Shown here: in pieces, positions 54,715-63,272 of the stretch
Numbering within the stretch: position 1 is the stretch's first letter
How the letters are laid out: each line of letters starts with the position of its first letter
DNA from: Methanosarcina barkeri str. Wiesmoor
Lineage (GTDB): Archaea > Halobacteriota > Methanosarcinia > Methanosarcinales > Methanosarcinaceae
DNA: 64,000 nucleotides
Direction: 5' to 3'
Assembly: GCF_000969985.1 (NCBI RefSeq)
Contig: NZ_CP009526.1
Span: 1,302,001-1,366,000 of the forward strand
Translations under genes and position numbers: made by a program
Notes under the pieces: model-generated
Told to the model about the DNA's origin: nothing
Database searches by the model: none
What the model saw: the letters and a program-made list of their open reading frames with translations, nothing else

Positions 54715-56091
54715 ATGACATTTAGAAAGTCCTTTGATTGCTATGATTTCTACGACAGAGCAAAAGTAGGAGAAAAGTGTACTCTGGACGACTGGGATCT
54801 CATGAGGATCCCAATGAAAGCAATGGAACTCAAGCAGAAGTATGGGCTTGACTTCAAGGGAGAGTTTATCCCGACAGATAAGGATATGATGGAAAAACTC
54901 TTCAAGGCCGGCTTTGAGATGCTACTTGAGTGTGGAATTTATTGCACAGATACCCATAGGATCGTAAAGTACACTGAAGACGAAATCTGGGATGCAATCA
55001 ACAATGCCCAGAAGGAATTTGTGCTCGGAACTGGCAGGGATGCCGTTAATGTAAGGAAGAGAAGTGTTGGTGACAAGGCAAAGCCAATCGTACAGGGTGG
55101 ACCTACCGGTTCTCCAATTTCCGAAGACGTGTTTATGCCTGTTCACATGAGCTATGCCCTGGAAAAGGAAGTAGACACGATTGTTAATGGTGTCATGACT
55201 ACAGTACGTGGAAAAGCTCCTGTTCCAAAAAGTCCTTATGAAGTTCTTGCTGCAAAGACCGAAACAAGGCTAATTAAGAATGCTTGCGCCATGGCTGGTA
55301 GGCCTGGCATGGGTGTCTAGGGCCCAGAGACCTCACTGTCCGCCCAGGGAAACATTTCCGCTGACTGTGCCGGCGGAATGACCTGTACGGACAGTCACGA
55401 GGTCTCGCAACTCTGTGAACTCAAGATCGATCTCGATGCAATTTCAGTTATTGCTCACTACAATGGGAACAGCGACATCATAATGGACGAACAGATGCCG
55501 ATCTTTGGAGGATATGCAGGCGGCATTGAAGAAACGACTATAGTCAACATTGCAACCCATATCAACTCCCTTGTTATGAGCAACGCAAGCTGGCACCTGG
55601 ACGGCCCTGTCCACATTCGCTGGGGTTCAACAAACACCAGAGAGACATTGACGATTGCAGGCTGGGCATGTGCAACAATTTCCGAATTTACGGACATACT
55701 GTCAGGTAACCAGTACTACCCATGTGCAGGCCCATGCACTGAGATGTGCCTGCTCGAAGCTTCAGCCCAATCCATTACTGACACTGCTTCAGGCAGAGAA
55801 ATCCTCTCCGGTGTCGCATCCGCAAAGGGTGTCGTTACCGACAAGACCACAGGTATGGAAGCCAGAATGATGGGAGAAGTAGCAAGGGCAACGGCAGGTG
55901 TGGAAATCTCAGAAGTAAATGTGATACTCGACAAGCTTGTAGCACTCTACGAGAAGAATTACGCAAGCGCACCAGCAGGAAAGACCTTCCAGGAATGCTA
56001 CGACGTAAAGACCGTAACACCAACTGAAGAGTACATGCAGGTATACGACGGAGCAAGAAAGAAGCTCGAAGACCTGGGACTTGTATTCTAA
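54715..56091 (+). CDS. mtmB: monomethylamine methyltransferase with in-frame UAG (pyrrolysine)
   Basis: Transfers a methyl group from monomethylamine to the corrinoid of MtmC. The reading frame is interrupted by TAG at 55318-55320, codon 202, and then continues without change of frame to TAA at 56091, giving 458 residues, the family length. Residue 202 is the known pyrrolysine position in MtmB (context GRPGMGV-Pyl-GPETSLSAQG). The sequence after the TAG is fully conserved-looking (ISADCAGGMTCTDSHEVSQL), so this is readthrough, not decay. GGGAGGCAAGACA is a strong ribosome site. Needs PylS, tRNA-Pyl and PylBCD, not in this window. Confidence 0.98.
55318..55400 (+). promoter_or_regulatory. Pyl amber codon and downstream PYLIS-type stem region
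   Basis: The TAG is followed by GGGCCCAGAGACC and several complementary segments (GGCGGAATG, GTCCGCC), matching the position of the stem-loop described after mtmB amber codons. Its need for readthrough is debated. Confidence 0.7.
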
Positions 56092-56777: not shown

Positions 56778-57629
56778 TTGGAAATGGGACTTACTCTGGT
56801 TAATGAAAAGAATGAAACCGACATCAAAGAAGTCCTTAACTACCTCTTAGAGCTTGCACTGAAATATGCAAAAGAAGAGAATGAAATCGACACAAAAAGA
56901 TTAATTGAATATATGAAAAAGATAGGAAAAGCGGCAGCTGTTGCCAAGCTTGAACCAATTGTTGTCAATACGCTTTTGCTTTTTCCCCAGGTTGCCACAG
57001 AGGCATGCAAGCAGAATATGGAAAATGTTCTTGTGAGCATAGCACTTGCATTTGGAGAGATTGGAAAGGTCGCAGCAGAACAAAAAATGGAGACTCCTGC
57101 AAAGATCGCAGCTTCCTACCTTGGCGAGATGGGAAATACTGCAGCTTCGCGAAGAGCTAAAAAGGGAACAATTGCAGTTATTTTCGCTCTTGGGGAGATC
57201 GGAAAAAGCGTTACATGGCAAAAGCTGGGTGATGTTGCAAGCAGTACAGCTTTCCTTCTCGGGGAAACCGGGAAGGTTGCTGCAAGCCAGAATTTTGAGG
57301 ACGCGGTATTAAATGCCGAGCTGCTGTTGCAGGAGATCGGAACAGGTGCAATTGAAAAAAACTTGAAAGAAACTGCAGATATGAGTGTACGCTCTATCCA
57401 GGATATAGAAAAAACTGCAGATCGTCAGGGGCTTGATAAGGCTTTGCTTCAGGCAGCCTATTCACTCGAGGCAATTAAATTTAATGCCGAGGATCGCTAT
57501 CTAATGAATGCATCCATAATTGCTGAAGTGGCTCTCCTTCACTTTGAAAGATTGAATATTGAGAGACTGGAAGATAAGCTGAATAAAATTTCCAGGGGAA
57601 AAAAGAGATCACCAGGTACAGGTTTATGA
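56778..57629 (+). CDS. 23-residue alpha-repeat protein, paralog 1
   Basis: About 284 residues from TTG 56778. From about residue 43 the sequence falls into nine or ten consecutive units of exactly 23 residues, pattern xxxAxxxLGEIGKxAAxxxxExx (for example AKIAASYLGEMGNTAASRRAKKG, TIAVIFALGEIGKSVTWQKL). Predicted all-helical, soluble, no signal peptide. I do not recognise the family; unit length differs from TPR (34), HEAT (about 37) and ARM (about 42). Alignment with paralogs 3 and 4 shows the frame is homologous up to ATT at 56751, which aligns with their ATG, so the true start may be upstream and non-canonical. It is followed by paralog 2. Confidence 0.7.
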   Translation: MEMGLTLVNEKNETDIKEVLNYLLELALKYAKEENEIDTKRLIEYMKKIGKAAAVAKLEPIVVNTLLLFPQVATEACKQNMENVLVSIALAFGEIGKVAAEQKMETPAKIAASYLGEMGNTAASRRAKKGTIAVIFALGEIGKSVTWQKLGDVASSTAFLLGETGKVAASQNFEDAVLNAELLLQEIGTGAIEKNLKETADMSVRSIQDIEKTADRQGLDKALLQAAYSLEAIKFNAEDRYLMNASIIAEVALLHFERLNIERLEDKLNKISRGKKRSPGTGL

Positions 57630-57784
57630 ACTGTTACATTCAGTTTAATGATTATTCATATTGAGTTAATCAGTTCGATATTAAATCTCAATCGTTGCCT
57701 TCTTTACAGGGAAAGGAGTGCAGGAAGGATTACCTGGTTTTAAGGTGCTTTTTCCCGATATAAATTTTTAGTGGGGTGTTCTGA

Positions 57785-58621
57785 ACGTCTATTTCAAACG
57801 AAACCGGGGCAACGGATCTCGGGCTAACTTCAGTTAAGGAAAATGATGAGCTTGGCGTATTACGATCCATAGATTTCCTTACGGAACGAGGAACCGAATA
57901 TATAAATAGAAAACTCGAGCCCGATGCAAAAAAGGCTATTATCTGCATAAGAGACATAGGTAGCGCGGCTGTCTTTCAAAAAATGGAAATCGGGGTATTT
58001 TTATCACTCTTTTCGCTTGGAAAGATGGCTGAAATTGCAAGAGAGCAGAAAATGACTGATACCGGTTTAAGCATCCTTTACTCTCTCTGTGCAATTGGGA
58101 AAGCAGCGGTTGGGCAAAATATGGAGTCTGCGGTCAGGATCGCAGTCTCATATCTTGGAGAAATTGCGAATTCTGCCTCGCTTCAGAAGACGGAGAGAGA
58201 GGCGCTTGCTGCGGCGCTTGCTATAGGATCTATAGGAAAGGAAACTTTCGGGCAGCAGAGTATCAGGGTTCCGGAAAACGGAGGATTTCTTCCTCCAAAG
58301 TCATCTATCCTCTTATCTCAACCTCCTGGAAAAGAGGCTATTCTCTTCTCCAGAGAATTTCCGGGTATTTTTAGTCTGCTTGTTCAACAGGGAGGAGAAA
58401 CCGATTCCCTTCAGGATATTCCTGTCCTTTCGGAAAATGAATCGTCTTATACGGGTTTTACCGACTTTGAGAATTTAATCATAAGAGCTGCTAATTCTCT
58501 GGGAACGATGATTTTTGAAGTTAATGCAAAATTTTTAATAAGTCACGTGCTTATGACAAAACTTGCCCTTGAAACTCTCAATGGATCTGAATATATACAT
58601 GAAGCCGAATCTCTTGATTGA
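57785..58621 (+). CDS. 23-residue alpha-repeat protein, paralog 2 (start uncertain, possibly decayed)
   Basis: The first ATG in frame is at 57983, but coding similarity to the other paralogs extends upstream to ACG at 57785, immediately after a TGA: ISNETGATDLGLTSVKE aligns gap-free with LPLDENEALEMGLTLVNE of paralog 1. Units of 23 residues include AKKAIICIRDIGSAAVFQKM, VFLSLFSLGKMAEIAREQKM and VRIAVSYLGEIANSASLQKT. A 70-residue Ser/Pro-rich insert (about residues 180-250) separates the last repeat and the C-terminal cap. Either translated from a non-ATG codon, from 57983 as a shortened protein, or a start-loss pseudogene. Confidence 0.55.
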   Translation, partial: TSISNETGATDLGLTSVKENDELGVLRSIDFLTERGTEYINRKLEPDAKKAIICIRDIGSAAVFQKMEIGVFLSLFSLGKMAEIAREQKMTDTGLSILYSLCAIGKAAVGQNMESAVRIAVSYLGEIANSASLQKTEREALAAALAIGSIGKETFGQQSIRVPENGGFLPPKSSILLSQPPGKEAILFSREFPGIFSLLVQQGGETDSLQDIPVLSENESSYTGFTDFENLIIRAANSLGTMIFEVNAKFLISHVLMTKLALETLNGSEYIHEAESLD

Positions 58622-58953
58622 AAACTTATAATATTTTAAAGTGCCGTTTGCTCTGAATAGCTTTGATCCTGGTTGCAGTTCCAGGGAATCCTCTAATTTC
58701 ATGGGACCTGTTTAACTGAGAATCGACATAACTGATTCAAGTGGCTGCATCGGTAGAGTACTTAATATGATGCGAATTCTAGCTACCGTTGAATGGCTTG
58801 AGAAATGCAGGAAACCTTAACATTTAAGGTATATTTTTCAGAATATATATTTCATAATGATTTTTATTCCAATTATTCATCTTACAAGTTGTTATAAAAA
58901 CAAGATTTCTTTTTTGCCAGGTCAACTTTGGTAATTTTAGGGGTTATTGGTCC
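58622..58953. other. 330-bp spacer
   Basis: No gene. AT-rich second half provides the promoter of the beta-helix gene; AGGGGTTATT lies before its ATG. Confidence 0.4.
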
Positions 58954-60456
58954 ATGAAACGGAAACGCATTCAGGTTATTCTCATAATTTTTCTATTTAT
59001 GCTTTGGACAGCAATTACTCAAACCGAGGCTGCGGTTGTCACTGTAAATAACAGTGGTGATGGGAATTATTCTTCGATCCAGGAAGCTATCAATAATTCA
59101 CATGATGGGGATACAGTCCTTGTAAGCCCCGGTGTATACAGGGAAAATATAATCGTCAACAGGGAACTTACAATTCTCTCTCATCCCATGCTCTCAGGCA
59201 GCCAGACTAACCGCACCTATATTATAGGTACGGTTTCTGACAATGCGGTCTTCAGTATCAGCTCAGACAATGTGACACTAAACGGTTTTCATATTGCAGG
59301 AGATCCTTTCGGAAAGGATATGTCTCAGGAGGTCGGGCTTTACCTTGAAGGTGTACGAAATTGCTCCTTAAATAACAATACGCTGATACTGACAGATCAA
59401 GGGATTGTTCTCAAGAGTTCTCAGGACAACCATCTTGATGGAAACCTTGTAAGCCTTGGGAACGAGGGGATTGTGCTTGACAATTCAGAGGAGAATGTAC
59501 TGTCAAACAATTGGGTAGTGAGAAATAATCAGGGAATTTCGCTGAATAATTCCTTTAACAATAATCTTGTTAACAATACTGCAGGTTCAAATGGAGTGGG
59601 CATTCTCCTGCAAATGTCTCAGGGAAATAAGCTTGCTTATAACCTAATTTTGAAAAATGAATATGGGGTTCTAGGCCAGGTGGCCGGGTCCAATATTTTA
59701 ACCAATAATAATCTCTACTTTAACGACATTGGCGTGGATCTTAGGGGTTCATCAAACAATTCATTCTATGAAAATGAATTTGTTAACTTTCTGAATGCAG
59801 CAGACGAAGGAAATAATATATGGAACAGCAGCTCGACAGGTAACTTCTGGAATGATCATACAGGGGCAGATGCCGATGGAAATGGTATAATCGATAATCA
59901 GTACGCCATTAACCAGATCACTGGAGCTATTGATTATATGCCTTTGATAAATAGGATTTCTTCAGGCAGTGGCTCCGAAGCTTTGGGTGCTAATGGCTAC
60001 ATTTTGTTGGTGCTATTTGAAAAAAAGTACCCTGAAAACTCAACGGGTAACCGCGAAAAAGGGGCTGTTATCGAGACAACCGAACTTGGACAGATAAATA
60101 AATTCCTTGAGGAAGGTCCGGTATTTTTGAAACTTGGGGCTGAATGGTGTGGAGCCTGCCAATCCATGAAACCTATTCTCGATGAGCTGGTTTCCAAGTA
60201 CGGGGATAGAGCAACAATAATGTCCATAAATATAAACAAAAATCCTCAGCTTGCAACTTATTTTGATGTAGGCTACATTCCAGACTCTTCCATGATTGTG
60301 GGTATTGAAAATGGAACATATGTTTACATGCAACTGGATGGTAATATTACCACAGACAGAGTAAGGGCAAGAATTGTTGGACTGGAAGACAAAGAAGTGT
60401 ACGAAAAAGTTCTGGAAAACGCTCTTACCTATGAAGAGAAAAGTAAATCGAAATAA
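58954..60456 (+). CDS. exported beta-helix protein fused to a C-terminal thioredoxin domain
   Basis: Signal peptide at residues 1-26. Residues of about 28-330 are right-handed parallel beta-helix repeats of the NosD/CASH type (SIQEAINNSHDGDTVLVSPGVY start, then NSEENVLSNNWVV, NSFNNNLVNNTAG, SSNNSFYENEF). A C-terminal thioredoxin-like domain starts near 370 with FLKLGAEWCGACQSMKP (WCGAC, C399 and C402), ISINKNP-like and GYIPDSSMIV (the cis-Pro region). So an extracellular carbohydrate- or surface-binding domain carries a redox-active or disulfide-forming domain. No membrane anchor is visible at the C-terminus. It separates the repeat-protein paralogs 2 and 3. Confidence 0.8.
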   Translation: MKRKRIQVILIIFLFMLWTAITQTEAAVVTVNNSGDGNYSSIQEAINNSHDGDTVLVSPGVYRENIIVNRELTILSHPMLSGSQTNRTYIIGTVSDNAVFSISSDNVTLNGFHIAGDPFGKDMSQEVGLYLEGVRNCSLNNNTLILTDQGIVLKSSQDNHLDGNLVSLGNEGIVLDNSEENVLSNNWVVRNNQGISLNNSFNNNLVNNTAGSNGVGILLQMSQGNKLAYNLILKNEYGVLGQVAGSNILTNNNLYFNDIGVDLRGSSNNSFYENEFVNFLNAADEGNNIWNSSSTGNFWNDHTGADADGNGIIDNQYAINQITGAIDYMPLINRISSGSGSEALGANGYILLVLFEKKYPENSTGNREKGAVIETTELGQINKFLEEGPVFLKLGAEWCGACQSMKPILDELVSKYGDRATIMSININKNPQLATYFDVGYIPDSSMIVGIENGTYVYMQLDGNITTDRVRARIVGLEDKEVYEKVLENALTYEEKSKSK

Positions 60457-60790
60457 AAGAGGCCTTTGAATGGTACGTAATTCCGACTAAGTTCAAAATT
60501 TACTTTCTGAAAAAAACGGAAACCCTTTTTTGAATGAACTGCTTCGGTTACAAAATAGTAACACTAATAACCTCGTAACTTCATAGAGTAAGCCAGACTC
60601 CATTTCCTGCGTAGCCGTATCTCTTACACAATAATTTGAAATTAAAAATATGCGATGAAATATACAGGCAAGAATTATAAAACCTGCGGGAAAATATTGA
60701 AGCTTAATGCGTTCTACTAATAATAAGAGACACTACCAATAGGATACTATCAATAAAGAGGGATACTATCAATAAAGAGGGGCAAAAAGA
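60457..60790. other. 330-bp spacer with short direct repeat
   Basis: No gene. GATACTATCAATAAAGAGG occurs twice in succession (about 60741-60780), the second copy supplying the ribosome site GAGGGG of the next gene. Confidence 0.6.
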
Positions 60791-61684
60791 ATGATTACAT
60801 TAAATGAGGCAGAGGCAGTTGAAGTAAATTTATCTGCAGTTGACGAGGGAGATGAGAACAGAGCTTTCCAGGCCCTTGATTCCCTTACAGGAATTGCGGC
60901 AGATTTCCTTTCTGAGAATGAAGAGGCAGATGCCGAGAGAGTCATCCTATCAATTGAGAATGGCGCACAGGCAGCTGCAGAGAAAGAGATGGAGCTTGTT
61001 ACAATTAATTCTATCCTGTCCCTCGGGAAACTGGCAAGGAAAGCAGCAGACAATGGATTTGAGTCTGCCCTCGGCAAGGCCTCCATAGCAATAGGAAAAT
61101 TGGGAAAAACTGCAGCTGTACATTCTCTTGAAGCTGGTTCAAAGGTCGCTGCTACAACTCTGATGGAGATCTGGAACTTCTTCCCAGAACAGTGGGATCA
61201 GGAAAAGGTAATTTCCTTTTCTTTGCTCTTTAAAGAGATCGGAACCTCTGCTGCCAGACAGGGTATGGAGGACGTTGTGCTCAGTGCAGTAACCTGCCTG
61301 GGAGAAATCGGGAAAAAAGTTGCAGCAAAAAGCCTTGAACTTGAAACTGTAAGCAGCCTGCTTTTGCTTGAGGAAATTGGTAAACTTGCGGCGGAGAATT
61401 ACTTTGATGAAGCTTTGAGTTCAACAGCGCTTTCCATAGAAGATATCGGGAAACTATCTGTAAAGAAGGGGCTTAATGATGCAGCTTTGCAGTGTCAGTG
61501 GGCACTTGAGACTCTGCGAGTCCAGGCTGAAGAAAAGGTTCTAAATAATTCTTCAATCGTGGCGGAAGTGGCTCTGGATAATTTTAAAGATGTCAGCTAT
61601 ACGGATTCCGAGGAAAAAGTGGAGAAGTTCCAGGTAATAAAGACTCTTCAGAAAAAAATCCAATCTAATATGAAAATTCAGTAA
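60791..61684 (+). CDS. 23-residue alpha-repeat protein, paralog 3
   Basis: GAGGGGCAAAAAGA before ATG 60791 decides the start. The 297 residues have an acidic N-terminal cap (1-48), about nine units of 23 residues, with only one unit of 24 and one of 22 (for example TINSILSLGKLARKAADNGF, VLSAVTCLGEIGKKVAAKSL, TVSSLLLLEEIGKLAAENYF), and a charged C-terminal tail. The C-terminal unit (SSIVAEVALDNFK) matches paralog 1 (ASIIAEVALLHFE). Cytoplasmic, all-helical; function unknown. Confidence 0.8.
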   Translation: MITLNEAEAVEVNLSAVDEGDENRAFQALDSLTGIAADFLSENEEADAERVILSIENGAQAAAEKEMELVTINSILSLGKLARKAADNGFESALGKASIAIGKLGKTAAVHSLEAGSKVAATTLMEIWNFFPEQWDQEKVISFSLLFKEIGTSAARQGMEDVVLSAVTCLGEIGKKVAAKSLELETVSSLLLLEEIGKLAAENYFDEALSSTALSIEDIGKLSVKKGLNDAALQCQWALETLRVQAEEKVLNNSSIVAEVALDNFKDVSYTDSEEKVEKFQVIKTLQKKIQSNMKIQ

Positions 61685-62525
61685 GAGGTACTCTAACGCA
61701 GCTGTTTATATAGCTCAGTTATTTATTCCATCTGTTTATCCAAGAAAAATATTTACATAATAAACTTTTCGTTTTTGTAGATGGCCTGGTTTATTCTGGC
61801 TTTAAATTTTTTATGAATTTTTACTTTTGACCTACTCCCAGATTTCGATTTTTTTTATTCTGTTTTGGAAAAAGAAGTGATTTTTATTCAGACTTTCTTG
61901 AAGAAAACCTATACCTGTTCCTGGTAAAGCTGAAATAAGTGTTCGAGTACTCTTTGAAAGTTTCTCACTTCTTTGAAACCATTAGTTTTAAATAAATTAC
62001 TACAGTATTTCTCTAAAGCAAATTATTGCTTCCTTGATAAGTGCTTGAGGTTTCAAAGTGAAGTGTTATAAGAGGCGTTTAGATTTAGTCTGTACTTAGC
62101 ATACAATACTCTGCACTTAGCATGCAAAACAGTTGTTCGGGTAAGAGGAAGGTAAGGAGTGGAACCCTTCCCCCTACCTCGAAGGTTGATTTTACTCACG
62201 CAGGAGAATATGCCAGAAACCCGGCGTGAGTTTTTTACTCAGATGATATATATTATGCATGAAATGTATTTAACTCTTTCTATTTTATATATATGTCTTT
62301 TAATCGGGTCATCTTTTATTTTAATCCCAATTTTAATCCCAATTTTAATTTCAATTTCTGTCAAGTAAACATATAAAATTAAGTATAATCTGAAATAGTA
62401 ATCTTGAAGTTCCAAATGTATTTTGAAAATTATAGGAAAACTAATATCTGAGTAAACCTATATAAATACTTAAATTTCTAAAATCCAAAAATTTTTAACG
62501 AATTTTACTGGAAAGGGGTTTTAAT
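61685..62525. other. 840-bp spacer
   Basis: No protein gene believed. Contains the hairpin pair at 62140-62236 listed separately. The last 15 bases carry AAAGGGG for paralog 4. Confidence 0.5.
62140..62236 (+). ncRNA. candidate structured RNA with two hairpins and T-tail
   Basis: GAGGAAGGTAAGG ... CCCTACCTC forms a first stem (62145-62180), and ACTCACGC ... GCGTGAGT (62194-62231) a second, followed by TTTTTT. In an AT-rich spacer this GC-rich pair with a terminal T-run could be a small RNA with terminator, or an insertion sequence end. Confidence 0.35.
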
Positions 62526-63272
62526 ATGTTCTCACTGAACGAACAAAAGGCTATTGAACTTGGAGAATCTGGAGAACGAGCAATAAGAGAACAGAATGAA
62601 TATGATGCGCTCCAGTATGCTGAGTACCTCCGGGAATTAGGGCATGAGTTGCTTGAAAGTAATTTTGAGAAAGAGTCAAAGCGAGTCGTTATCTCACTCA
62701 GAAACATTGGTAATAAAGCTATCCAGAAAAAGATGGATAATGTTGCGTCCACAGCTATTAATGAACTTAAATATCTTTCTGAAACTGCACTTGATAAGAA
62801 TTTCTCAAACGCGATGTGGTCTTTTTCAAAAGCTGCACAGGAGATCGGAAAAGGAGCAGTACAGGCCGAGATGCTCGAACCTGCAAAACTTGCGATCGAC
62901 ACGCTTAAAATGATAGGGATGGGCGCAGTTGAGAAGAAAATGGAAGTTGTAACCCTCTGGACAACCATGTCACTTGAGGAAATGGCTTATCTTGCAAATA
63001 AGCAGCAACTTGAAGATTTAACTAAGGAAGCAAAAGAGGCTAGAGAAGAAATTATAGAATACTCCGAAGCCTCAGGGTTTGTTACAAAGGAACAGATTGA
63101 CAAATACCCACAGCTTATCGCCCAAACCGTAAGTCAATTCTCAGAGCTTCGGAATCTACAGCCTGCAGGTTATGAGACCAAGCCTAATGAAGAATTCACA
63201 GAAGAGGAATTCTTTGAGGGAGAAGGGGAGGAACAAGATCCTGAAACTGAAGCTGCCAGAAAGGAAAAGTAA
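62526..63272 (+). CDS. 23-residue alpha-repeat protein, paralog 4
   Basis: AAAGGGGTTTTAAT before ATG 62526 supports the start. The 248 residues have an N-terminal cap (MFSLNEQKAIELGESGERAI), at least five 23-residue units (SKRVVISLRNIGNKAIQKKM, AKLAIDTLKMIGMGAVEKKM, TLWTTMSLEEMAYLANKQQL) and then a different C-terminus, ending in a highly acidic stretch (EEFFEGEGEEQDPETE). It is the shortest and most diverged member. Followed by two tandem terminators. Confidence 0.8.
   Translation: MFSLNEQKAIELGESGERAIREQNEYDALQYAEYLRELGHELLESNFEKESKRVVISLRNIGNKAIQKKMDNVASTAINELKYLSETALDKNFSNAMWSFSKAAQEIGKGAVQAEMLEPAKLAIDTLKMIGMGAVEKKMEVVTLWTTMSLEEMAYLANKQQLEDLTKEAKEAREEIIEYSEASGFVTKEQIDKYPQLIAQTVSQFSELRNLQPAGYETKPNEEFTEEEFFEGEGEEQDPETEAARKEK

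Follow-up and report, generated by a model that had tools for sequence, protein, structure and literature searches.

Thiol keeping and editing outside the membrane has been little studied in archaea. In Methanosarcina, a link of one exported thioredoxin to CcdA is already published: MmTrx2/MaTrx6 (active site WCGPC) is encoded upstream of CcdA in M. mazei and M. acetivorans, and a homologue was reported to reduce insulin (PMC6262447). Adjacent thioredoxin and CcdA genes of M. acetivorans have been named ccmG and ccdA; strains without ccmG, ccdA or both had holo-MmcA at the parent level in reducing laboratory growth (PMC9084895) and, therefore, no phenotype ties the pathway to a substrate. Concanavalin-A-interacting proteins were reported to include MM0991, an M. 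mazei thioredoxin predicted to be a lipoprotein (PMC4350412). As for beta-helix proteins, NosD-like genes were reported to be enriched in Methanosarcina without nos operons (PMC12904285).

Here we describe a gene of Methanosarcina barkeri str. Wiesmoor in which a NosD-type beta-helix is joined to a thioredoxin domain. The gene is situated in a 64,000-nucleotide stretch of contig NZ_CP009526.1 (positions 1,302,001 to 1,366,000), hereafter the window. We found no description of this fusion in the literature searched; its M. acetivorans orthologue (L031) may appear in McCarver and Lessner 2014.

The fusion gene and its conservation

The original prediction of a single frame made of a signal peptide, a beta-helix and a thioredoxin domain with WCGAC was confirmed in order and coordinates by the ORF and by Pfam (Table 1). 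The frame opens with the ATG at 58954 and runs with no internal stops to the stop codon at 60454-60456, thus coding for 500 amino acids; the WCGAC motif takes residues 398-402. The N-terminus was judged by inspection and hydropathy, with a 19-residue Kyte-Doolittle maximum of 1.97 and all stretches after residue 40 at or below 0.95. By inspection, signal-peptide-like N-termini without a lipobox were seen in 13 of 13 fusions. The protein has three cysteines, C137 in the beta-helix along with C399 and C402. Since C137 is kept in all 13 fusions and the same cysteine is present in six listed beta-helix-only relatives, it is a feature of the beta-helix and not evidence for a partner thiol.

Table 1. 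Features of the fusion gene and of the surrounding repeat-protein genes (positions in the window).
Feature	Coordinates	Strand	Evidence
rep1, helical-repeat protein, no known family	56778..57629	+	Pfam, NCBIfam, locus comparison
rep2, helical-repeat protein	57983..58621	+	Pfam, NCBIfam, locus comparison
Whole fusion gene, 500 codons + stop	58954..60456	+	ORF; orthologues in 13/30 genus genomes
Signal-peptide-like N-terminus (~residues 1-27), without lipobox	58954..59034	+	sequence, hydropathy
NosD-type right-handed parallel beta-helix and C-terminal cap (~residues 30-335)	59041..59958	+	Pfam, NCBIfam, AlphaFold2, Foldseek to NosD; C-cap matched by 2kzw
Variable linker, residues 336-367	59959..60054	+	alignment; dN higher than in either domain
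Thioredoxin domain and family-specific C-terminal extension, residues 368-500	60055..60453	+	Pfam, module alignment, profile alignment
Lys393, at the buried-acid position (Asp26 of E. coli thioredoxin)	60130..60132	+	HMMER alignment
Active-site CGAC, residues 399-402	60148..60159	+	both Cys invariant in 30/30 aligned modules
Pro443, thioredoxin cis-proline position (IPD)	60280..60282	+	invariant in 30/30 modules
rep3, helical-repeat protein	60791..61684	+	Pfam, NCBIfam, locus comparison
rep4, helical-repeat protein	62526..63272	+	Pfam, NCBIfam, locus comparison

A co-linear fusion, with nearly the whole protein in one stop-free frame, was found in 13 of the 30 Methanosarcina genomes; the identity of the other fusions to that of the window varied from 58 to 86%. 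Two public records, L050 (M. spelaei) and L051, also contain the fusion. That two genes were united artificially through a frameshift, a read error or a misassembly (the first and last of which the original prediction had kept in view) is practically excluded by this recurrence of the same uninterrupted frame.

When the gene of the window was compared at the nucleotide level with seven of its 12 orthologues, omega was 0.20-0.24 in the signal and beta-helix part and 0.12-0.23 in the thioredoxin part, while values in the short linker were 0.24-0.89. The low omega in both halves means that the beta-helix and the thioredoxin parts are kept by purifying selection. Two decayed copies were also seen: only four pieces of the fusion remain at the syntenic place in genome G003, and the copy in G011 is frameshifted and internally shortened. 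Among plasmid records, 43 had a match to the fusion with none covering 80% of the protein, while PHROGs gave no match. A promoter and terminator scan around the gene, which models bacterial promoters, gave nothing beyond chance that we used. The fusion is real, selected and lineage-restricted.

The 11 fusions situated in the repeat-protein cluster formed one clade in the trees of both halves, with support of 100/99 for thioredoxin and 97/99 for the beta-helix; placement of the remaining two (L031 and L032) was ambiguous in either tree. A single clade of 14 thioredoxin rows (the 13 fusions and the decayed G011 copy) was not rejected (p-AU 0.281). The simplest history, though unproven, is that the fusion arose once and moved into the cluster later. 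We also observed a similarity between the linker of the window's fusion and the lipobox region of L005, a lipoprotein, with only one of 300 shuffles scoring as high. In the same test on all 13 fusions, four gave at most 9/300 and a fifth 19/300, all in the near clade of the window. The other eight, including the deep-branching ones, gave at least 91/300 and, for this reason, the idea of a fossil signal peptide in the linker was set aside as unproven.

Beta-helix half and repeat-protein neighbourhood

In Pfam, NosD (PF05048) matched residues 121-304 with 112.2 bits (cut-off 23.6) and Beta_helix (PF13229) scored 49.4 bits (cut-off 25.9). NCBIfam agreed with Pfam on the repeat and the domain. The fusion reached no equivalog cut-off of NCBIfam; the score for the NosD copper maturation model TIGR04247 was 113.3 bits versus 300. 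AlphaFold2 modelled the beta-helix core (residues 131-250) at pLDDT block means mostly of 70-94. The top Foldseek match was NosD (7osf), with query-normalised TM-scores of 0.16-0.39 obtained for the whole, low-confidence model, from which only the class, a beta-helix, was taken. A beta-helix-only paralogue was 51-59% identical over approximately residues 1-340, and the six listed proteins of this type had 341-378 amino acids. By similarity and inspection, the neighbours that we read were repeat proteins, mtmB-like and trp-like genes, with no nos genes among them.

The four related repeat proteins rep1-rep4 (56778-63272) had no Pfam or NCBIfam match, and their cluster is located between methylamine and trp-like genes. 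A methylamine methyltransferase-like gene at 54715-56091, presumably MtmB, contains an in-frame TAG (55318-55320), the codon expected for pyrrolysine. The start of rep2 is doubtful as its frame runs upstream of the first ATG and several orthologues of 252-278 amino acids begin upstream; one of these has ATG where the window reads ACG.

The position of the fusion in this cluster had been thought possibly coincidental. We see that the fusion is followed by rep3 on the same strand in 11 of 13 cases, preceded by rep1 in all 10 cases with contigs long enough, and accompanied by rep2 in nine. On the other hand, fusion and cluster also occur separately. The two fusions that diverge most, of G001 (which we take to be M. 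acetivorans) and G019, sit outside the cluster, while rep3 had matches in 28 of the 30 Methanosarcina genomes. Moreover, three of the five loci read from genomes lacking the fusion at that place (G006, G007 and G009) carry rep1-rep2-rep3 with nothing between. The cluster is, therefore, a conserved address of one clade and not a functional requirement.

A functional tie between the fusion and the repeat proteins was considered and found unsupported. Three of the four repeat proteins have no signal-like N-terminal hydrophobic stretch (the start of rep2 being uncertain) and they look cytoplasmic; gaps of about 330 bases flank the fusion on both sides, and each partner occurs without the other. 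In the rep2-rep3 interval of G001 we observed a different beta-helix ORF (L110, 5765-7459, minus strand; 34% identity over 253 residues), which gives the impression of recurrent insertion of beta-helix genes at this site.

Exported thioredoxin family and its active site

The Pfam Thioredoxin model (PF00085) matched residues 386-448 with 45.1 bits (cut-off 23.5), while the score for the classical TrxA equivalog TIGR01068 was below its cut-off (42.7 versus 96.8 bits; NCBIfam). In two AlphaFold2 jobs this part had pLDDT mostly below 50; the thioredoxin fold of the fusion is assigned from sequence profiles. With a threshold of E 0.001, neither Pfam nor NCBIfam matched the fusion to the CcmG/TlpA/ResA family.

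We built a family profile, A1, from 30 exported thioredoxin modules, the fusion itself being one row. A1 matched the fusion, C-terminal extension included, at E 3.6e-69; the kinship to lipoproteins was also seen in pairwise search. Of the 111 Methanosarcinaceae genomes, 97 had a match to the profile, including 84 of the 85 of good quality; in a sample of 392 genomes from the phylum, 69 had one. Thioredoxin-only paralogues have 162-205 amino acids and are 45-61% identical to the module of the fusion; all 17 that were listed start with a lipobox signal (e.g., LFTAGC). Genomes carry up to six copies of the module, and that of the window has five thioredoxin-only paralogues besides the fusion. We infer that MM0991, MmTrx2 and these modules make one family.

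Outside Methanosarcina, A1 frames longer than 400 residues were found only in G173 and G284 of the phylum sample, where a module in a long frame is, thus, rare. The attachment was called unusual in the original prediction, and within this phylum sample the architecture is rare; the thioredoxin half as such is one member of an exported family made up mostly of lipoproteins. Other joins were observed as well. In proteins of G004, G025 and G027 (L087-L089), the same module comes after a signal-like start and is followed by one or two PKD repeats (the Pfam scan was done on the G004 protein). The G173 protein (L100, 6973-11943) is an exported-looking frame of 1656 residues made of thioredoxin, a NosD beta-helix and LamG, an architecture found in one of the 51 genomes of its family. 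These joins mean that the module was repeatedly connected to surface-type domains. Tandem thioredoxin modules were present upstream of ccdA in G070 and G077.

Three side observations concern related proteins. Two genomes of a different genus encode cysteine-less thioredoxin-like lipoproteins next to ccdA (L108, 3697-4206; L109, 2483-3025). A 3498-residue protein (L099, 3106-13602) combines an N-terminal thioredoxin with alpha-2-macroglobulin-type domains. The genome of the window also codes for a 471-residue DsbD-like protein (L105, 3724-5139, minus strand) that has a CxxC-containing stretch at its N-terminus besides a membrane part of the CcdA type.

Both active-site cysteines and the cis-proline were invariant in all 13 fusions. 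This invariance makes it very unlikely that the domain has a passive role in binding or structure and undergoes no redox turnover, even if the cysteine-less relatives beside ccdA (L108 and L109) indicate that the fold can persist without chemistry. Around the cysteines the family is diverse, with 24 types of the five-letter motif among 51 modules.

The residue located six positions before the first cysteine was Lys or Arg in 30 of 30 aligned modules. Among 53 modules it was Lys in 39, Arg in 10 and Glu in two, with two modules having no CXXC; i.e., 49 of the 51 CXXC modules, and 13 of 13 fusions, have a basic residue there. In the profile alignment this residue coincides with the buried Asp of solved thioredoxins, so that the fusion has Lys393 where classical TrxA has its acid. 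In thioredoxin and cDsbD the buried acid was reported to shape the thiol pKa (PMC3961690). A basic residue at this position should stabilise the thiolate and may render the active site of the fusion more oxidising than that of a thioredoxin. Judged from sequence, a more oxidising protein, an isomerase and an effect compensated elsewhere would all fit this pattern.

CcdA pairing and the role of the fusion

The DsbD_TM model (PF02683; CcdA/DsbD) had matches in all 30 Methanosarcina genomes. For 41 of the 85 above-cut-off CcdA matches, the same strand carries an exported thioredoxin module at a distance of 31-326 bases upstream, and these pairs were spread over 29 of the 30 genomes. Counted from the modules, 41 of the 91 in the genus were paired with CcdA and 50 had no CcdA match within 1 kb downstream. 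All fused modules fall in the latter group, with ccdA adjacent to none of the 13 fusions. The pairing was also seen in other genera and families (L101, L102, L108 and L109) and in four of five further loci (L115, L117, L118 and L119, but not L116). The electrons used by the family of the thioredoxin half probably come from the cell interior.

The oxidising systems searched were DsbB and VKOR; each model had matches in none of the 30 Methanosarcina genomes, while controls matched in other genomes. Such an absence of a partner, the link of the relatives to CcdA and the insulin reduction by the MaTrx6 homologue (PMC6262447) make it unlikely that the fusion is an oxidase, a DsbA-like maker of envelope disulfides in which the basic residue lowers the thiol pKa. 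This reading would agree with the basic residue that nearly all CXXC modules have in place of the buried acid, as well as with the varied CXXC dipeptides.

We propose, with a probability of roughly 0.55, that the fusion is an exported thiol-disulfide oxidoreductase, i.e., a disulfide reductase or isomerase mounted on a beta-helix and recharged from CcdA either directly or by relay. The protein would be exported and its signal removed. The NosD-type beta-helix would then serve as a rigid carrier, in place of the lipid anchor of the sister thioredoxins, and perhaps also as a binding surface for envelope polymers. Through C399 and C402 the thioredoxin domain would reduce or reshuffle disulfides of envelope proteins. 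Cytoplasmic electrons arriving via CcdA would restore its reduced state, either directly or through a lipoprotein thioredoxin that exchanges thiols with it. Export, reducing direction, relay and carrier role are what we infer for the fusion.

In favour of a reductase we counted the conservation of the fusion, the omega values, the lipoprotein relatives, the CcdA pairing, the absence of DsbB and VKOR and the insulin-reducing homologue. Against it we counted the non-adjacent ccdA, Lys or Arg at the buried-acid position, the low-confidence thioredoxin model and the unchanged holo-MmcA. Extracytoplasmic disulfide handling is the likeliest role; the original prediction, which suggested disulfide handling at the cell surface, is partly supported, and it is refined by the kinship to the CcdA-linked exported thioredoxin family.

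Two more specific roles were also weighed. That the fusion is a CcmG-type apocytochrome c reductase, redundant with the lipoprotein thioredoxins, appears quite improbable, given the parent-level holo-MmcA after ccmG, ccdA or double deletion (PMC9084895) and the unmatched CcmG/TlpA models, despite the name ccmG given there to the ccdA-adjacent gene. A single deletion could still be masked, as G001 has three exported modules. That deletions of ccmG and ccdA spared cytochrome c might be explained by redundancy among exported thioredoxins, the fusion being one of them. The second role, an outer-surface electron contact, e.g., in direct interspecies electron transfer (DIET), is suggested by a secreted lipoprotein thioredoxin of M. 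barkeri that was 2.7-fold up in a DIET co-culture (PMC6315138, Table 5). However, that protein has the lipoprotein site PS51257 and is not the fusion, dithiol chemistry moves electron pairs, and the authors call such roles premature; we consider this role highly improbable.

Returning to a CcdA-recharged reductase or isomerase, one could tentatively imagine, though we rather doubt it, a modular extracytoplasmic thiol network in Methanosarcina. A CcdA-fed module with the basic residue would have been duplicated onto lipid anchor, beta-helix and PKD carriers, placing reducing or isomerising power at different envelope depths or polymers, with the beta-helix version as the outer-surface part. One model genus unites a CcdA-type supply in all genomes, unmatched DsbB and VKOR, and exported thioredoxins with an unusual active site, and its natural fusions suggest a destination of thioredoxin activity. 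The parts are of known kinds, while the combination and the active site of the family seem to be without description in the literature found.

Compared with known systems, the fusion shares the right-handed beta-helix with NosD (PF05048; TIGR04247; 7osf); unlike NosD, it scores below the TIGR04247 cut-off, has no nos neighbours and carries an appended thioredoxin. As in the bacterial periplasmic pathways of DsbD and CcdA-TlpA, an exported thioredoxin fold would be fed by a CcdA-type transporter (the linkage being that of relatives), but here a basic residue replaces the buried acid and the mount is a beta-helix. The thioredoxin-PKD fusions likewise have the exported module on a surface-type scaffold, with the difference that the PKD repeats are C-terminal to thioredoxin. 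The G173 protein also combines thioredoxin and a NosD-type beta-helix in one frame; it differs in the reversed order, in its length of 1656 amino acids and in belonging to another family of the phylum. The closest are MmTrx2/MaTrx6 and the 'ccmG' of PMC9084895, with which the fusion shares the module, the C-terminal extension, the basic residue before CXXC and 45-61% identity. Proteins of the MmTrx2/MaTrx6 type are lipobox lipoproteins of 162-205 amino acids, many encoded directly upstream of ccdA, whereas the fusion has a signal peptide and a beta-helix instead of the lipid anchor, and ccdA is not adjacent.
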